Below, in pieces: positions 10,043 to 18,122 of a stretch of DNA of 64,000 nt. Both the position numbers and the translations under genes were made by a program. The DNA comes from Fundidesulfovibrio terrae (GTDB lineage Bacteria; Desulfobacterota; Desulfovibrionia; Desulfovibrionales; Desulfovibrionaceae). The stretch covers positions 682,001-746,000 of the forward strand of contig NZ_JAKZFS010000002.1 of the NCBI RefSeq assembly GCF_022808915.1. The letters run 5' to 3'. A model generated the notes under the pieces. That model made no database searches and was not told the DNA's origin. It worked only from the letters and a program-made list of their open reading frames with translations. Position 1 is the first letter of the stretch. Every line of letters starts with the position of its first letter.

Positions 10043-11019
10043 AAGGCAATATCCTGGTGACGGGCGGGGCGGGCTACATCGGCTCCCACACCTGCAAGGC
10101 CTTGAAGCAGGCCGGATACCAGCCCATAACCTTCGACAACATGGTCTATGGTCACGAGTGGGCCGTCAAATGGGGGCCGCTCATCAAGGGCGACATCCTG
10201 GACGGCGAGACCCTGGATGCGGTGTTCAAGCAGTACGCCCCCCTGGCCGTGCTGCACTTCGCGGCTTTCGCCTATGTGGGCGAGTCTGTGGCCGACCCGG
10301 AGAAGTACTACCGCAACAACGTCATGGGGACGCTCTCGCTGCTCTCGGCCATGCGCCGCGCCAAGTGCAAGAACATCGTGTTCTCCAGCACCTGCGCCAC
10401 CTACGGCGTGCCGAGCGAGCTGCCCTTGCGCGAGGACCATCCGCAGAAGCCCATCAATCCCTACGGCTGGACCAAACTCATGATGGAGCAGACCCTCAAG
10501 GACTTCGATACCGCCTATGGCATCCGCCACGCCGCGCTCAGGTATTTCAACGCCGCCGGGGCCGACCCTGACTGTGAGATCGGCGAGGAGCACGATCCCG
10601 AGACGCACCTGATTCCGCTGGTCATCGCCGCCACCCAGGGCAAGCGCGGCAACGTGGAAATCTACGGCACCGACTACGACACCCCGGACGGCACCTGCAT
10701 CCGCGACTATATCCACGTGGCGGACCTTGCCGTGGCGCACATCCAGGCCCTGGAATACCTCCAGGACAAGGACGAGAGCCTGGTGGTGAACCTGGGCACC
10801 GGCAACGGCCAGACCGTGCGCGAGGTCATCCGGGCGGTGGAGAAGGTGTCCGGCAAGGCCACGCCCGTGAAGGAAGGCCCGCGCCGCCCCGGCGACCCGC
10901 CGGGCCTCTACGCCTACGCCGACAAGGCCTACAAGCTGCTCGGCTGGAAGCCGCAGTACGGGGATATCGAGACGATTGTCGGCACCGCCTGGAAGTGGCA
11001 CGAGAAGGCGAAGAGTTAA
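10039..11019 (+). CDS. galE: UDP-glucose/UDP-galactose 4-epimerase
   Basis: This 326-aa extended short-chain dehydrogenase interconverts UDP-Glc and UDP-Gal (or a related UDP-sugar) using bound NAD. The NAD-binding GGAGYIG is at residues 9-15, the SST region near 118, and the catalytic YGWTK puts Tyr142 and Lys146 in place. Other GalE landmarks are HFAAFAYVGES and LRYFNAAGADP. Its ATG overlaps the stop of the hydrolase gene (ATGA), so translation is coupled. It closes the 1390-11019 gene set and would supply the sugar nucleotide for its transferases. UDP-arabinose 4-epimerase activity cannot be excluded from sequence alone. Confidence 0.92.
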   Translation: MKGNILVTGGAGYIGSHTCKALKQAGYQPITFDNMVYGHEWAVKWGPLIKGDILDGETLDAVFKQYAPLAVLHFAAFAYVGESVADPEKYYRNNVMGTLSLLSAMRRAKCKNIVFSSTCATYGVPSELPLREDHPQKPINPYGWTKLMMEQTLKDFDTAYGIRHAALRYFNAAGADPDCEIGEEHDPETHLIPLVIAATQGKRGNVEIYGTDYDTPDGTCIRDYIHVADLAVAHIQALEYLQDKDESLVVNLGTGNGQTVREVIRAVEKVSGKATPVKEGPRRPGDPPGLYAYADKAYKLLGWKPQYGDIETIVGTAWKWHEKAKS

Positions 11020-11022
11020 GAT

Positions 11023-11063
11023 GCCTCCGGCGGCCAAAGGGACGGGGACCCTTTGGAATCCCC
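11023..11063. repeat. Intergenic palindromic repeat, copy A
   Basis: This element is the reverse complement of the one at 27319-27357. Both have a GGATTCC end, an AAAGGG/CCCTTT inverted pair with a variable 4-6-bp centre, and a GCCGCCGGAGGC end. The copy sits directly after the galE stop, as is typical of REP-type elements. A shortened relative lies at 36004-36020. Confidence 0.75.
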
Positions 11064-11102
11064 AATAGCTTCGCGCCGATCGATGTGAAGTTTGACCAAT
11101 AT

Positions 11103-11137
11103 GCAGGGAGCGCGCTTTGCGCGCTCCCTGCTTTTTT
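11103..11137. terminator. Bidirectional intrinsic terminator between galE and chemoreceptor
   Basis: A perfect 13-bp GC-rich stem (11103-11115 with 11119-11131, loop TTT) is followed by six T residues on the plus strand. It lies between two convergent genes and can end the galE transcript. On the minus strand the T tract is less clear. Confidence 0.88.
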
Positions 11138-11144
11138 GTCTTCC

Positions 11145-13271
11145 TTAAACGCCCAGCGCCCGGGTCCCCCCGGCCTGACGCTTGAGCTGGTCTATCAACT
11201 GCGCCAGGGCGGCGGCCTGGGCTTCCAGGTCCTGGAGCGCCCCGAGCGAGGCGTTGACGTGCTCGTCGGTGCGCACGGCGATGGCGTTGATCTCGTCCAC
11301 GGACCGGTTGATCTCCTCGGACGTGGCGGACTGCTCCTCGGCGGCTGTGGCGATGGACTGGATCTGCCCCGCCGAATCGTCGGTGCTGGAGACGATCTCT
11401 CCCAGGGCGGAACCGGATTCTCCGGCCAGGTTGGCGGCCTGGTCCAGATCGGCGACCGCCGCTTCCACTGAGCGCACATTCTCCCCGGCCACGCGCTGGA
11501 TCGACTGGATGGACTCGCCCACTTCCTTGGTGGCCACCATGGTCTTTTCGGCCAGCTTGCGCACCTCGTCGGCCACCACGGCGAAGCCTCGCCCGGCCTC
11601 TCCGGCGCGGGCCGCCTCGATGGCGGCGTTCAAGGCCAGGAGGTTGGTCTGGTCGGCTATGTCCTCGATGGTGGTCATGATCTTGCCGATGGCCTGGGCC
11701 TGGGAGTCCAGCTGGTTCATGGATTCGCGCAGGGCGGTGGTCTTGCGCTGGGTTTCGCGCATGGCTTCGAGTGATTTCGCCACCACCTGCGCGCCGAGGC
11801 TGGCCTTGTCGCGGGCGTCCTTGCCCTGCTGGGCGGCGTTGGAGGCGTTGCGGGCCACCTCCAGCACGGTGGAGTTCATTTCCTCCATGGCCGTGGCCGT
11901 GGAGGAAATGCGTTCGCGCTGCACATCGGTGCCCTGGCGGATGTCCGCGGAATGATCAGCGAGGGAGCCCACGGCGGCGCTGAGTTCGTGGGCGACTTCC
12001 TCCAGCCGGTGTGCGGCGTCGAGCATGCCTTCGGCCCTGGCCCGTTCCGCCTGGAGCTTGGCCGACTCGGCCTCGTCGGTGGCCAGGCGGGCGGCATGGG
12101 CCTTGTCCTGGGCGTCGGCGGTCCTGGCCTCGATCTCGGCGATGTTGTTCCTCAGCGTGGCGCTCATGGTGTTCAGGGCGTCGAAGATGGAGCCGATCTC
12201 GTCGGTGCTGCGGTGCTCGATGCGCCCGTAGCTGCCCTTGGAGATGTCCCCCAGGAAGGCGTTCACCCGGTTGAGGGGCCGGATGACGATGCGCCGGGTG
12301 AGAATCCAGATGCCGAGCCCCATGGCGGCCATGCTGGCCAGGGCTACGCCCGCGATGGGCGTCACCGCGGCGGACACGGGCTCCATGAGCTCGCTTTCCT
12401 CGATGAGGCCGATGAAGCGCCATTTGAGTTCGGGCGAGGTGTAGGCGGCGGCGCTGTAGGCCGTCCCTCCAACGTTCACGGAGCCGGTGGCCGAGCCGGA
12501 CTTGAAGAAGGCCGCCAGGGAGTCGTTGCCGATCTCCGCGATCTTCTTGAAGTTGTGCTCGGGCTTCTTGGGGTCGGAGATGACCACGCCGTCGTCCTGG
12601 ACGAGAATCACGTACCCGGTGCGCCCGATGCGGACCTTTTTGATGAGGTCGGTGATCTGGGTCAGGGTGATGTCCATGGCCGAGATGCCCAGGATGTCCC
12701 CCTTGGCGTCGAGGATGGCCTTGCAGACGCTAATCATGGGGGTCTTGTCCACGGCCTCGTAGGCGGGGGTGACCACGGCCTCGCGCGGGGTGGCCATGGC
12801 GCTCTTCCACCAGGGGCGCTGGCGCGGGTCGAACCCGGCGGGCTGCTTCTTGCCCGTGTCCTTATGGTTGATGATGTACTTGCCGTCGCGGTTGCCAGTG
12901 TAGATGGCGAGATAGTCCGGATGCGACTCGCGCAGGGGGCCGAACGCCTCGTACATGAGCCGTCCGGCCTCGTCGTCCGGCCAGACCTTGGCCAGGGTCG
13001 CCTCGGAGGTGCCCACGAAGGTGGTCTTGAGTTCCTCGATCCGCTTGTTCACCGGGAGCGAGGCGGCCATGGTGATGTTGAGCTTGGCCTCTCCCAGGAA
13101 GGAGGCCACCACGTTGCTGGCCTGGCGGAGTTCCGCGGTGGCGGCCTGGGTGAAGTTGTCGCGCGAGAGCGTGGAGATGTTCCCCGACGTAAGCAGAAAG
13201 ATCGCGATCATGGGCAGCAGGATGATCACGAACGTCCCCAGCATGAGTTTCACGGTGATGGATCGTTTCAA
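11145..13271 (-). CDS. Methyl-accepting chemotaxis protein with double-Cache sensor
   Basis: This 708-aa chemoreceptor signals to CheA/CheW. The chosen start is TTG at 13271, because a perfect AGGAGG lies 5 bp upstream of it (13277-13282); a longer frame to ATG 13334 would lack this. It has an N-terminal TM (about 8-30), a periplasmic dCache region up to about 300 (PWWKSA, DITLTQI), a second TM near 310-335, a HAMP domain, and a long cytoplasmic coiled coil. The invariant hairpin tip ([19 protein letters not shown]) confirms the class. No CheR-binding pentapeptide is seen at the C-terminus. The ligand is unknown; dCache domains usually bind small organic acids or amino acids. Confidence 0.95.
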
Positions 13272-13477
13272 GGGGGCCTCCTTTCTGGCGGGTACGGAAA
13301 ACTGACCGGGACTCCGGTCATCCCGCAGGCTCAAGGCAGGTGCATACGGCTACGAACAATATAGTACATCCCGGTGATGTAAAGGTGCCGGATACGAAAA
13401 ATGGGAGTTCAAAGACGGACGGGAGTCTGTTAGGGTTTGAAATGACGGACAGCCATACGAAATGGAGGCGGTGTGCC

Positions 13478-13762
13478 ATGAGTGATGCTCATCTGGTCGT
13501 GGGCGGCGTGGACCTGGCGAAGATACGCAACAAGAACGAGCTCCGCGTGGCCCGGCTGCTGGATAAAGTCCTCGCCGAGGACGGGGCTGGCGTCACCGAC
13601 CCCCTGGACATCCAGGACGTCTACGCCCTCACGCTCAACCTGCTGCCCTCGCGCTACCGCCAGCTGGGCACCATCGTCCTCTCCGAACCCGTCAAGGACA
13701 GCCACATCGAATCCGCCATCCGCCGGGCCCTCCGCACCGTGAAGGAACGCCCCAACCGCTGA
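13478..13762 (+). CDS. ComFB-like protein
   Basis: This is a 94-aa protein; the start was chosen at ATG 13478 because ggagg lies 9 bp upstream (13464-13468). The central sequence NKNELRVARLLDKVL, then DPLDIQDVYALTLNLLP followed by RY, is the hallmark of the late-competence protein ComFB family. ComFB-like proteins of cyanobacteria have been reported to bind cyclic di-GMP. Whether this one does is inference, but the window also encodes a diguanylate cyclase and two PilZ proteins. It stands alone, divergent from a chemoreceptor gene. No other competence gene is nearby, so a DNA-uptake role should not be assumed. Confidence 0.8.
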   Translation: MSDAHLVVGGVDLAKIRNKNELRVARLLDKVLAEDGAGVTDPLDIQDVYALTLNLLPSRYRQLGTIVLSEPVKDSHIESAIRRALRTVKERPNR

Positions 13763-13780
13763 GCCAGGCTCCGGTTTTTC

Positions 13781-13810
13781 CCGCGCGGCCGTGCCGGCCG
13801 CGCGGCTTTC
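13781..13810 (+). terminator. Probable terminator after the ComFB-like gene
   Basis: A perfect 10-bp GC stem (13781-13790 with 13796-13805, loop GTGCC) lies 18 bp after the stop codon and is followed by a short, interrupted T/C run. The stem is strong but the T tract is weak. Confidence 0.55.
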
Positions 13811-13957
13811 CCCTTGTCTTCAGTCTTGTCCGGGCATGGAAGTCCTATTCATTGCCCCTGGCGGAAGTTCCGTGATATGCGGATCCCGCTGACATATCCG
13901 GATTCTCGTCACAGACCGGCCAGGACATGGCGTGGCCGCACAAGCGAAGAGGGGCGC

Positions 13958-15277
13958 ATGCGTTACGACTTGAAGAGCCTGCTCGTGTTTCTTGCTGTAT
14001 GCGTTGTTGGACCGGCCGGATGCTCGCGCAATGCCGATGCGCCCGCGCCCCCGATGTCCGCCGGGGGGGAGCGCGCGGCCTCCTCGGAATACGTCGGCTC
14101 GCAACGCTGCGGGACCTGCCATGCCCGCAATTACCACTCGTGGCGAGGGACCAAGCACGCCAACATGCTTGCCGAGCCGGACAACAGGAGCGTGGTGGGG
14201 GATTTCTCCCGGGCCGGCGTCCTGGACCTGCCGGAGGGCCTGGCCGCGCGCATGCACGAGAAGGACGGCCGGCGCTTCGTCTCCCTCGAGCAGGGGGGAC
14301 GCTCCCGCGAGGACCAATCCGTGGCCTACGTGCTGGGCGGAGCGCGCCGCCAGATGTACGTGGCCGTGTCGCGGGAGGGGAAGCTCTGCGTGCCGCCCGT
14401 GCAGTGGAACGTCCGGGACGGGCGCTGGAGTTCGCCGCAGGGGCCGGACGGGGCCACGGACGACTGGCTGCGCGACTGCGCCGGGTGCCACGTCACCGGC
14501 TTGGGCCAGGCAGGCGCACAGGGAGGCGGCGTGAAGACCTGGAGCGAGGACGCCATCGGCTGCGAGGCCTGCCACGGCCCGGGTGCGCGCCATGCGAACG
14601 CCAAGAATCCCGAAAAACCAGACACCATCTTCAATCCCGGCAGCGTCCCCGAAGAGGCGCGGGCCGCCATGGTCTGCGGGCGGTGCCACACCAGGGGAAC
14701 ATCCTCGGACGGCAGGGCGTATCCCCCGGGCGTCGAGCCCGGAGGCGACTTCCGTCACGGTTTCGCCGAGGTCAAGAGGGACGACGCGCGCTATTTCTGG
14801 CCGGACGGATCCTCCCGGGCCAACCGCCAGCAGTATGCCGATTTCGTCACCTCCACCATGTACGAACGGGGCGTGAAATGCTGGTCCTGCCACAATCCGC
14901 ACAAGGCCTCGGAGAACAACGCCTCGAGCCTGCGCCTGACGGGAAACTCCCTGTGCCGCTCGTGCCATCCGGCCGGCGCCGGGGAGAGGACCCTGACCCA
15001 CGCCATCCACGACAACGGCAACTGCCGGGCCTGTCACATGCCGCTCACGGCCGGCCTTGCCTCCGGCGGCGAGCTGGCCTCCCATCGCTTCCAGCCCGTG
15101 CGACCGGCGGCCACCGTGGAACTCGGGAGCGGCGACGTGGACAGGCAGCCGAATTCCTGCAATGCGTGCCATTATCACGGGAAGCAGCCTCCCGCCGTGC
15201 TGGAAGCCTATCTCCAGGCACGCGTCAAGAGGCACTACGAGGCTCCGGCGGCGCAGACCGCCCGGAAGAACCCGTAA
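13958..15277 (+). CDS. Octaheme c-type cytochrome, lipoprotein
   Basis: This is a predicted 439-aa periplasmic electron-transfer or redox enzyme. ATG 13958 is preceded by agaggggc; the signal ends in a lipobox-like GPAGC (Cys22). Eight CxxCH heme sites are visible in order: CGTCH, CAGCH, CEACH, CGRCH, CWSCH, CRSCH, CRACH, CNACH. The opening 'YVGSQRCGTCHARNYHSW' and the spacing resemble the cytochrome c554/multiheme families related to nitrite and hydroxylamine enzymes. No substrate can be assigned. A membrane pentaheme cytochrome gene follows 22 bp later and could pass quinol electrons to it. The heme count is direct; the function is inference. Confidence 0.88.
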   Translation: MRYDLKSLLVFLAVCVVGPAGCSRNADAPAPPMSAGGERAASSEYVGSQRCGTCHARNYHSWRGTKHANMLAEPDNRSVVGDFSRAGVLDLPEGLAARMHEKDGRRFVSLEQGGRSREDQSVAYVLGGARRQMYVAVSREGKLCVPPVQWNVRDGRWSSPQGPDGATDDWLRDCAGCHVTGLGQAGAQGGGVKTWSEDAIGCEACHGPGARHANAKNPEKPDTIFNPGSVPEEARAAMVCGRCHTRGTSSDGRAYPPGVEPGGDFRHGFAEVKRDDARYFWPDGSSRANRQQYADFVTSTMYERGVKCWSCHNPHKASENNASSLRLTGNSLCRSCHPAGAGERTLTHAIHDNGNCRACHMPLTAGLASGGELASHRFQPVRPAATVELGSGDVDRQPNSCNACHYHGKQPPAVLEAYLQARVKRHYEAPAAQTARKNP

Positions 15278-15299
15278 TCCGGGCGCTGCGGAAAGAAAC

Positions 15300-15791
15300 A
15301 TGGGCCGAGCGAGCGACTGGGGCGGGCCTCGCCCGCGCAAACTGATCGCGGTGGTCTGCGCCGCAGCGGCGGCGCTCTTCCTTTCCGTGCGACAGGGCGC
15401 CTCGTTTCTGGCCAGTCCGTCCTTCTGCTCCTCATGCCACGTCATGAGCGCGCAATACGTCTCGCACCGCAGGTCGGCGCACCAGCGTGCGCCCTGCGTG
15501 GACTGCCACACCGGGAGGGGCTGCGGCTCCTGCCATGACCCGGGCCGGTCCGACGCGGCAGTGGCGGGCAGGGCGGTCAACGCCCCGGGGCCGGACCTGC
15601 ACGCGGTCCACGCGTCCGGCCCGGGCGTCGCCTGCACGGATTGCCACCTGGGGATCATGCACTCCAGGATCGACGGATACACGCGGGAGAGTCCCCGGGC
15701 GTCCTGCGGGAAGTGCCATGGGCAAACCGCACTCGGGGAGGGCGTCCGGCCTGCGCGGACGGGCGCTCTTCAGGACAGGGAGGAGCTGTGA
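15300..15791 (+). CDS. Membrane-anchored pentaheme cytochrome c (NapC/NirT-like)
   Basis: This 163-aa protein starts with an Arg-containing N-terminus and one TM helix (about 14-34), then five CxxCH sites: CSSCH, CVDCH, CGSCH, CTDCH, CGKCH. The layout is that of a small NapC/NirT/NrfH-type quinol dehydrogenase, which links the membrane quinone pool to periplasmic cytochromes. The usual family has four hemes in about 180 aa, so five in 163 aa is compact. It sits between the octaheme gene (22-bp gap) and a kinase gene whose ATG overlaps its TGA, so all three should be one operon. Confidence 0.85.
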   Translation: MGRASDWGGPRPRKLIAVVCAAAAALFLSVRQGASFLASPSFCSSCHVMSAQYVSHRRSAHQRAPCVDCHTGRGCGSCHDPGRSDAAVAGRAVNAPGPDLHAVHASGPGVACTDCHLGIMHSRIDGYTRESPRASCGKCHGQTALGEGVRPARTGALQDREEL

Positions 15792-17506
15792 TGGAACACG
15801 CGCACGGCCAGCCGACCTTCATGGGATTCGAGCCCCACGGGCATTGTTTCCTCTGGCAGCCGGACCTCATCGCGCTGCATACGGTGTCCGATTTCGTGAC
15901 CGGGTTGTCGTACTACCTCATTCCCGTGGCCATCTTCTATTTCGTCCGCAAGCGTTCCGACGTGCCGTTTCCGGCCATGTTTCTGCTCTTCGCGCTGTTC
16001 ATCGTCAGCTGCGGCACCACCCACCTCATGGCCATCTGGACCATCTGGACGCCGGACTACTGGCTGGAGGGCTGGGTCAAGGCGGCCACCGCGTTCTTTT
16101 CCCTGGTGACGGCCTTGCTGCTGTTTCCGCTGCTTCCCAAGGCCATGCTCATCCCGAGCCCGGCGCAGCTTGAGGCCGCCAAGGCCGAACTCCAGCGGCA
16201 CAAGGACCACCTGGAGGATCTGGTGGCGGAACGGACCTCGGAACTCCAGACGGCCAACGCCCGCCTGGAGGCGGAGATCGCCGAACGCAAGTCCGCCGAG
16301 GACGCCTTGAGGGAAAGCGAACAGCAGCTGCGTGGCTCCCGGGAGTTCCTGGCGCAGATCGTGGACAACATCCCGGACCCCGTTTTCGTCAAGGACGAGA
16401 ACCATCGTTACGTCCTGGCCAACACGGCCCTGTGCGTGCTGGCGGGAAAACCGCGCGGCGAGGTGGTCGGGAAAACCGACCACGACTTCCTGCCGGAGAG
16501 GCAGGCGCAGCTGTTCATCTCCCGCGACAAATTCGTGCTGGAGACGGGCGAGATGGACATCACCGAAGAGCAGTTCACCGACCCCTCCGGCCGCCCGCTC
16601 GCGCTTCTGACCAAGAAGACCCGGTACGTGGACGCGGGGCAAAAGAAGTACGTGGTGGGCGTGATCCGCGACGTCACCGAGCGCAAGCGCATGCAGGAGA
16701 TCATGGTCCAGACCGAGAAGATGATGAGCGTCGGGGGGCTGGCCGCGGGCATGGCCCACGAGATCAACAACCCGCTCTCCGCCGTCCTGCAGAGCATCCA
16801 GGTGGTGCAGAACCGCCTGTCCAAGGATTCCCCGGCCAACCTGGCCGCGGCCGAGGCGGCGGGATGTCCTTTCGAGGCCATCAAAGCCTTCCTGGGGGCG
16901 AGGGAGGTGAATTCGCTGCTGCAGGGCGTGCGCGACGCCGGGGCCAGGGCGGCCAAGATCGTCTCCAGCATGCTGGAGTTCAGCCGCAAGACCGAGTCCA
17001 ACCGGGCTCTGGTGGACTTGAACGGCCTGCTGGACAAGGCGGTGGAGCTCTGCGCCAACGACTACGACCTCAAGAAGAAGTACGACTTCCGCAAGATCGC
17101 CATCGAGCGCGATTTCGACCAGGGCATGCCCCTGGTTCCCTGCACGGCCACTCAAATCGAACAGGTGGTGATGAACCTCCTCAGAAACGCGGCCCAGGCC
17201 ATGGCGGAAAACGCCGGGCAGGCTTCCCCTCCGCGCATCGCCCTGCGCACCACGATCGAGGAAGGCATGGCCCGCATCGAGGTCCAGGACAACGGGCCGG
17301 GCATGGACGAGGCCGTCAGGAAGCGGATATTCGAACCGTTCTATACCACCAAGGGCCCGGGGCAGGGCACGGGTCTCGGCCTGTCGGTGTCCTACTTCAT
17401 CATCACGGAGAACCACAGGGGCAGCATCGAGGTGCAGTCCCGGCCCGGCGAAGGGACCCGGTTCATCATCCGGCTTCCCCTGTCGGAGGAGGGGCACGCT
17501 GGGTAG
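15791..17506 (+). CDS. Histidine kinase with ethylene-receptor-like N-terminal membrane domain and PAS domain
   Basis: This 571-aa kinase starts at an ATG overlapping the stop of the pentaheme cytochrome gene. Residues about 25-115 form three hydrophobic helices that match the ethylene-binding domain of plant ETR1. Asp34, Tyr41, Pro45, Ile71, Cys74 and His78 (motif IVSCGTTH) fall at the spacing of ETR1 Asp25, Tyr32, Pro36, Ile62, Cys65 and His69; the last two ligate copper in ETR1. A coiled coil (about 118-180), a PAS domain (about 180-300), HisKA with His323 (GMAHEINNP) and HATPase_c (DNGPGMDE, GTGLGLS) follow. There is no receiver. The kinase half is closely similar to that at 31477-34164. 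Ethylene or another small ligand such as a gas is possible; this is inference from motif identity. Confidence 0.9.
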   Translation: MEHAHGQPTFMGFEPHGHCFLWQPDLIALHTVSDFVTGLSYYLIPVAIFYFVRKRSDVPFPAMFLLFALFIVSCGTTHLMAIWTIWTPDYWLEGWVKAATAFFSLVTALLLFPLLPKAMLIPSPAQLEAAKAELQRHKDHLEDLVAERTSELQTANARLEAEIAERKSAEDALRESEQQLRGSREFLAQIVDNIPDPVFVKDENHRYVLANTALCVLAGKPRGEVVGKTDHDFLPERQAQLFISRDKFVLETGEMDITEEQFTDPSGRPLALLTKKTRYVDAGQKKYVVGVIRDVTERKRMQEIMVQTEKMMSVGGLAAGMAHEINNPLSAVLQSIQVVQNRLSKDSPANLAAAEAAGCPFEAIKAFLGAREVNSLLQGVRDAGARAAKIVSSMLEFSRKTESNRALVDLNGLLDKAVELCANDYDLKKKYDFRKIAIERDFDQGMPLVPCTATQIEQVVMNLLRNAAQAMAENAGQASPPRIALRTTIEEGMARIEVQDNGPGMDEAVRKRIFEPFYTTKGPGQGTGLGLSVSYFIITENHRGSIEVQSRPGEGTRFIIRLPLSEEGHAG

Positions 17507-17636
17507 GCCGGGACGGATCCCATGCCGCATAACCGAGCAAGGTGCTTCCATCCTGCTAGAAAAATAAAGCTTCCCATTCATTGGGATTCTGCTAAAAGCA
17601 GACCGTGAAACTTTAAGTACCGTTCAGGAGGGTATC

Positions 17637-18122
17637 ATGGCTCAGGAAGCGTCCGTCGCCCCCAAGGAACGCGTGAACATCGTCTACAAGCCCGCAACGG
17701 GCGACGCCAAGGAAGAGGTGGAACTGCCGCTGAAGCTTTTGGTGTTGGGCGATTTCACCAACCGCGCCGATGACCGCACCCTGGAGAACCGAGAGCCCAT
17801 CAGCGTCGACAAGGACAACTTCGACGACGTGCTCAAGGCCCAGAACATCGAGCTCAACATGACCGTGCCCAACAAGGTCTCCGGCAAGGACGGGGACGAG
17901 CTGGGCGTGCACCTCAAGTTCGACAACCTCAAGGATTTCGAGCCCGACGCCATCGTGGCCAAGGTTCCCGAGCTGCAGAAGCTCATGGAGCTGCGCGAGG
18001 CCCTCAAGGCCCTGAAGGGCCCCCTGGCCAACGTGCCCGAGTTCCGCAAGAAGGTTCAGGAGATGGTTCAAGACCCCGGCCTGCGCGACCGGCTGCTCAA
18101 AGAACTGGGTATCGGTTCATAA
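17637..18122 (+). CDS. tssB: Type VI secretion sheath small subunit TssB/VipA
   Basis: This 161-aa protein forms, with TssC, the contractile sheath around the Hcp tube. The start has aggagg 10 bp upstream. Typical landmarks are the PLKLLVLGDFTNR strand, the NFDDVLKAQNIELN stretch, and a C-terminal helical region (ALKGPLANVPEFRKK). The usual family length is about 160-170 aa. It opens the T6SS block, and tssC follows after 12 bp with its own aaggagg. The 130-bp region upstream must hold the promoter, but no clear consensus was recognised. Confidence 0.96.
   Translation: MAQEASVAPKERVNIVYKPATGDAKEEVELPLKLLVLGDFTNRADDRTLENREPISVDKDNFDDVLKAQNIELNMTVPNKVSGKDGDELGVHLKFDNLKDFEPDAIVAKVPELQKLMELREALKALKGPLANVPEFRKKVQEMVQDPGLRDRLLKELGIGS

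Follow-up and report, generated by a model that had tools for sequence, protein, structure and literature searches.

The window (i.e., the whole 64,000-nucleotide stretch of Fundidesulfovibrio terrae DNA analyzed here) carries, on one strand and in this order, an octaheme cytochrome gene, a NapC/NrfH-like cytochrome gene, and a gene for a sensor histidine kinase whose N-terminal domain is of the ethylene-receptor (ETR) type (Table 1). In the 571-residue kinase, the ethylene-binding domain (EBD) is followed by PAS, HisKA, and HATPase_c domains, all above their Pfam cut-offs, and the fusion of PAS and HisKA/HATPase modules behind the N-terminal domain is thus as the original prediction had described it. 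The EBD scores 128 bits against the Pfam ETR1_N profile, for which the curated cut-off is 27 bits. The kinase boxes are complete (H, HEINNP at 323, with His323 as the H-box histidine; N, NLLRNA at 462; G1, DNGPGM at 500; F, FEPFYTT at 514; G2, GQGTGLGL at 524). By Pfam scan, the protein lacks a receiver domain, and there is no response regulator among the flanking proteins scanned. The genome holds a very large set of related PAS kinases, with 119 matches to the window kinase (several per gene in places).

The start codons of the two cytochrome ORFs were picked by eye, as was a possible lipoprotein signal in the octaheme protein. The pentaheme protein is NrfH-like but not NrfH, scoring 46.1 versus 134.2 bits for the NrfH equivalog TIGR03153 (the longer ORF 15057–15791 was scored). 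Its TGA stop codon and the ATG of the kinase have one base in common (TGATG, 15789–15793), bearing out the predicted overlap of the kinase start with the stop of a gene with five CxxCH motifs. The GC3 of the three genes (0.86–0.91) is similar to that of the neighboring genes; overall GC is 0.70–0.72 in the cytochrome genes, 0.61 in the EBD, and 0.66 in the window. We found no promoter-like sites and two terminator-like sites, versus 2.5 in shuffled sequences.

Table 1. Features of the locus, in window coordinates
Feature	Position	Strand	Evidence or remark
ComFB-like gene, left flank	13340..13762	+	PF10719, E 5.9e-9; kept in congeners
Insertion with all three genes, about 3.8 kb	13769..17559	+	blastn against four T6SS-bearing congeners
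Octaheme cytochrome, c554 type, 439 aa	13958..15277	+	PF13435, E 2.1e-13; 8 CxxCH
NapC/NrfH-like pentaheme cytochrome, 163 aa	15300..15791	+	PF03264, E 3e-9; 5 CxxCH
ETR-like sensor histidine kinase, 571 aa	15791..17506	+	ATG 15791, stop 17506
PHGHCxLW motif, residues 15–22	15833..15856	+	directly before helix 1; conserved in relatives
Ethylene-binding domain (EBD), residues 26–119	15860..16144	+	PF25487 (ETR1_N), E 1.7e-37
PAS domain (PAS_4), residues 191–300	16361..16690	+	PF08448, E 3.9e-18
HisKA + HATPase_c kinase core	16736..17485	+	PF00512, residues 316–401; PF02518, residues 453–565
vipA, right flank, first gene of T6SS operon	17637..18122	+	PF05591, E 1.1e-56

The ethylene-binding domain and its relatives

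The residues needed for ethylene binding in plant ETR1, which we take to be Asp25, Tyr32, Ile35, Pro36, Ile62, Cys65, and His69 in ETR1 numbering, correspond to D34, Y41, I44, P45, I71, C74, and H78 of the window kinase at a single constant offset of +9. The original prediction had listed six of these at ETR1 spacing, and I44 (ETR1 Ile35) is added here as the seventh. Seven residues are described as needed for ethylene binding (PMC11819568 and PMC6682694), and with all seven at the same offset the full set is present in the window kinase. Searched in all six frames, the window has the exact residue-spacing motif a single time, in the kinase itself. In a BLASTP comparison with the N terminus of ETR1, 34% of 122 aligned positions are identical, and Lys97 aligns with ETR1 Lys91, a residue with a role in output (PMC11819568).

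The ETR1_N match is not due to chance; above the cut-off or at the default limit, none of 14 control genomes has one, and 11 of the 14 show a match only when the limit is relaxed to E ≤ 10. A different membrane-sensor family, the alternative that the original prediction had considered for the N terminus, did not emerge from the profile search, in which residues 26–119 match ETR1_N and no other such family. The original prediction had also suggested modeling the N terminus; an AlphaFold2 model of residues 1–141 (mean pLDDT 81.0, pTM 0.64) contains three long helices, at 24–54, 61–86, and 90–118, mostly at pLDDT 80–94, with residues 1–20 below 50. The ETR1_N family is defined by three membrane helices, to which the three predicted helices would correspond. 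A search of the PDB with the EBD profile gave no chain at E ≤ 1. The results support the assignment of the N terminus as an ethylene-binding domain of the ETR1 type in which none of the residues known to be required is missing.

A profile built from 10 EBDs and run on genome contigs identified at least 554 relatives among 580 candidate stretches. The best 80 of these are 56–65% identical to the window EBD, and 79 of them are cyanobacterial, the remaining one belonging to the Thiotrichaceae; in addition, 18 plasmid records match (7 from Azospirillum), and three relatives on viral contigs are 31–35% identical. Cys74 and His78, whose conservation the original prediction had made a test, are kept in all of 94 relatives compared, a result that is partly circular since 83 of the 94 loci were retrieved with peptide patterns and the Cys is part of one of these patterns. 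All seven binding residues are complete in 89 of the 94 loci, the exceptions being L014, L074, L097, L103, and L104. One of these, L014:1408–1821 (genome G590), encodes a 138-residue ETR1_N protein in which Asp25 is replaced by Asn and which has no in-frame output domain.

The PHGHCxLW motif lies outside the seven ETR1 binding residues. Among the relatives, H16 and C19 are found in 94 of 94, G17 and W22 in 93 of 94, P15 in 91 of the 93 covered, and H18 in 83 of 94; conservation of His16 and Cys19 is thus as strict as that of the copper ligands and stricter than that of the full set of seven. Plant ETR1 has Cys4 and Cys6 where the bacterial receptors have this motif. In cyanobacterial receptors, one cysteine at this place has been suggested to form the disulfide of the plant dimers (PMC6682694). 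It is possible that His16 and Cys19 form an extra metal site or a dimer disulfide.

Outside the window, the genome contains exactly one further ETR1_N match (L011:5623–7236, on contig C4), and its EBD is 87% identical to that of the window kinase. Its output domain is HisKA_2, not HisKA, and another kinase gene (L011:3950–5593) precedes it at a distance of 29 nt. When the three proteins are aligned, residues 1–160 of the window protein share 132 of 160 positions with the second receptor, compared with 23 of 129 aligned positions for the upstream kinase. For residues 301–571, identity to the upstream kinase is 201 of 265 aligned positions, compared with 50 of 211 for the second receptor. In a search with the kinase part, with at most 76 candidates scored per genome, the best non-self match is again L011:3950–5593 (464.5 bits), followed by a match of 404 bits in the same genome; the best match in 23 other genomes of the family reaches 398 bits. 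To judge from these alignments, the window protein is a chimera combining the sensor module of one gene with the kinase core of its neighbor, or the reverse. With the sensor module swapped between two kinase types in one genome, the EBD appears to behave as a plug-in sensor. Between the two EBD copies, dN is 0.073 and dS is 0.68 (dN/dS about 0.11; Nei-Gojobori, 110 codons), showing purifying selection on the domain.

At the second locus, three consecutive sensor kinase genes (L011:1484–7236) end with the HisKA_2-containing ETR protein, such that both chimera partners stand side by side; by eye, the genes flanking the three are RND-efflux-like on one side and carbonic-anhydrase-like on the other. 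The carbonic anhydrase gene is present in all six congeners, and past it none of the five congener regions fetched aligns to the second-receptor locus. No multiheme ORF occurs within the 31 kb read around the second receptor, so the EBD apparently does not need cytochromes nearby.

In an EBD tree of 92 rows and 118 columns (bootstrap not settled; L014, L103, L104, and L105 dropped beforehand), the two EBDs of this genome group together with support 100/100 and join rows from Desulfobacterota and Pseudomonadota (97/86), not the cyanobacteria; the pair sits on a long stem (0.98), and two long branches, L022 and L127, are joined in the tree. On the donor, the indications diverge: cyanobacterial EBDs are closest by identity among the matches listed, but the tree places the pair outside that group. 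Among Desulfobacterota of another family, two loci (L152 and L153) have an ETR domain joined to a diguanylate-cyclase-like output (by eye), and two others (L155 and L156) have an ETR kinase followed by receiver-domain genes (PF00072 in L155, by eye in L156).

The probable insertion and its cytochrome genes

Downstream of the kinase gene, a T6SS operon (vipA, vipB, and hcp, by Pfam) begins after 130 nt. VipB is carried by five of seven genomes of the genus, this one included, and is 94–96% identical in the four congeners that have it. In blastn comparisons, matches to these congeners stop at window positions 13759–13768 and restart at 17560–17561, the congener gap being about 30–230 nt, and the site of the three genes is empty in all four. 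Since the matches break at both edges, the trio has either been inserted here or been lost in all four congeners. The wider spot from galE to the T6SS (11019–17637) is variable among congeners, with the MCP gene at 11145–13334 matching in one of the four (L165).

Descent within the genus or class followed by loss elsewhere would fit the neighbor-like GC3 of the trio, the derivation of the kinase core from a PAS-kinase family that is expanded in the genome and in the family, and the position of the EBD in the tree, near Desulfobacterota rows and not within the cyanobacteria. ETR1_N is, however, found in none of six congeners and in none of 296 other genomes sampled from the class, and such a history would therefore require very many losses, making it highly improbable. 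In the phylum as a whole, 4 of 395 genomes, this one included, have ETR1_N above the cut-off; in a different family of the phylum, the domain was found in 4 of 30 genomes. Given how sparse ETR1_N is in congeners, class, and phylum, it is likelier that the trio was gained as one cassette than that it was lost in the congeners. An empty site in close relatives is thus combined with a patchy distribution, the pattern by which we judged lateral gain. Loss in the congeners keeps some probability because the GC3 of the trio resembles that of its neighbors and no mobile element is seen at the insertion edges.

The original prediction tied the kinase to respiration. The operon-like arrangement with the cytochrome genes stands, yet no other ETR locus that we retrieved has the three-gene arrangement. 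No ORF with at least three CxxCH motifs is found around 80 genome-contig, 5 plasmid, and 3 viral ETR loci, nor around the short loci from the family search, in flanks of 3.3–19 kb, a variation in length that could let more distant linkage be missed; applied to the window, the same script recovers exactly the two cytochromes. At two of five wider Desulfobacterota ETR loci, a four-heme ORF lies about 3–4 kb from the ETR gene, in a different order. The four best octaheme homologs in congeners are 36–37% identical, three of them adjoining a triheme ORF. The six best in the rest of the class (at most five candidates scored per genome) are 33–37% identical; four adjoin a triheme ORF, and the other two, whose contigs are 5.9 and 7.5 kb long, do not. 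None of these ten adjoins an ETR gene.

From the gene order in this one genome, the output of the kinase may act on the cytochromes. It is also conceivable, if less probable, that the cytochromes are accidental neighbors and that the kinase controls something else, e.g., the T6SS or motility/biofilm formation. The linkage has been observed once, the galE-vipA spot is variable down to an MCP gene matching in one of four congeners, and the Synechocystis and Azospirillum receptors affect biofilm, phototaxis, or root colonization (PMC11819568). Against this, the kinase start overlaps the NrfH-like stop by one base, the trio is wholly present or wholly absent across the five genomes compared, and conservation of the T6SS promoter region starts at 17560, outside the insertion.

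Proposed signaling and known receptors

We consider it probable that the locus encodes a putative Cu(I)/ethylene sensor kinase, coupled to a quinol-linked multiheme cytochrome module, that entered as one cassette. By analogy with characterized receptors, the EBD most likely binds ethylene at a Cu(I) ion held by Cys74 and His78 in the three-helix N-terminal domain and thereby alters autophosphorylation of His323. Ethylene binding would change the packing of the helices, the coiled linker and PAS domain would relay the change, and His323 autophosphorylation would presumably change in turn, as would phosphotransfer to a response regulator whose gene lies elsewhere, the signal running from membrane domain to kinase. 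The kinase would be translationally coupled to the NapC/NrfH-like cytochrome, which is likely quinol oxidizing, and to the octaheme cytochrome; the three genes would have entered the species as a single cassette, with comFB on one side and the T6SS operon on the other, and the kinase would unite the ethylene-binding module common to the second receptor with a local PAS-kinase core. Several observations count against this reading: no response regulator or target gene adjoins the kinase; among the ETR loci fetched, cytochrome linkage is seen in one genome only; the second receptor lacks a multiheme ORF in the 31 kb read around it; and no ethylene source is known for the organism.

The same Cu(I) site might instead respond to something other than ethylene, be it CO, acetylene, O2, or the copper/redox state itself, the kinase then reporting respiratory conditions. 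Two multiheme cytochrome genes are linked to the kinase, the invariant His16 and Cys19 (94 of 94 bacterial relatives) could be additional metal ligands, and we know of no ethylene source for this organism. We nevertheless regard a non-ethylene signal as unlikely, as the ethylene-binding residues are all kept and AzoEtr1 of Azospirillum, with the same PHG-C motif (L019), binds ethylene (PMC11819568). Endogenous ethylene from a nitrogenase-like reductase was also considered and found no support: the four nitrogenase-family (PF00148) matches in the genome are confined to one 10.3 kb region, and hence no extra ethylene-forming reductase of that family is seen.

Should the ethylene reading be correct, a receptor tied to a respiratory module would give a direct readout, through cytochrome expression or respiration, of what such receptors do in bacteria. 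A more speculative and rather doubtful extension is that the species gained a self-contained cassette in which ethylene or a similar gas serves as a cue for respiration, the cytochromes being either the regulated output or a redox input to the sensor.

The ETR family and this architecture are already known from many proteobacteria and cyanobacteria (PMC7700396, PMC11819568); the best-studied bacterial cases described in PMC11819568 are those of Synechocystis and Azospirillum. Our search for literature on ethylene receptors in Desulfovibrio, sulfate-reducing bacteria, or Desulfobacterota turned up nothing pertinent, although an earlier mention is possible; PMC8396549 names plant Etr1. The original prediction had called the find unusual, which holds for its rarity in the lineage and for the cytochrome context but not for the EBD-PAS-kinase order, present in AzoEtr1 as well (PMC11819568).

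AzoEtr1 of Azospirillum brasilense, the first 130 residues of which bind 14C-ethylene, shares with the window kinase the EBD-PAS-histidine kinase order and all seven residues (its C75 and D35 are C74 and D34 here) and is of comparable design at 525 versus 571 residues (PMC11819568). It differs in having a plant-associated host and a named response regulator, whereas none adjoins the window kinase (PMC11819568). L019, an EBD locus on an Azospirillum plasmid, shares 54% identity with the window EBD and has the PHG-C motif in common with it, but its 6.4 kb hold no ORF with at least three heme motifs, compared with the two cytochromes here. SynEtr1 (slr1212, Synechocystis) likewise has ETR1_N with the binding residues and, unlike the window kinase, a light-sensing GAF domain (PMC7700396). 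The seven binding residues of plant ETR1 recur with identical spacing in the window EBD; the window kinase has PAS where ETR1 has GAF and is without a receiver domain. With AzoEtr1 and its like already known, the window receptor therefore belongs to a known architecture, and what is new here is its occurrence in this lineage, together with the cytochrome cassette and the sensor-module swap.
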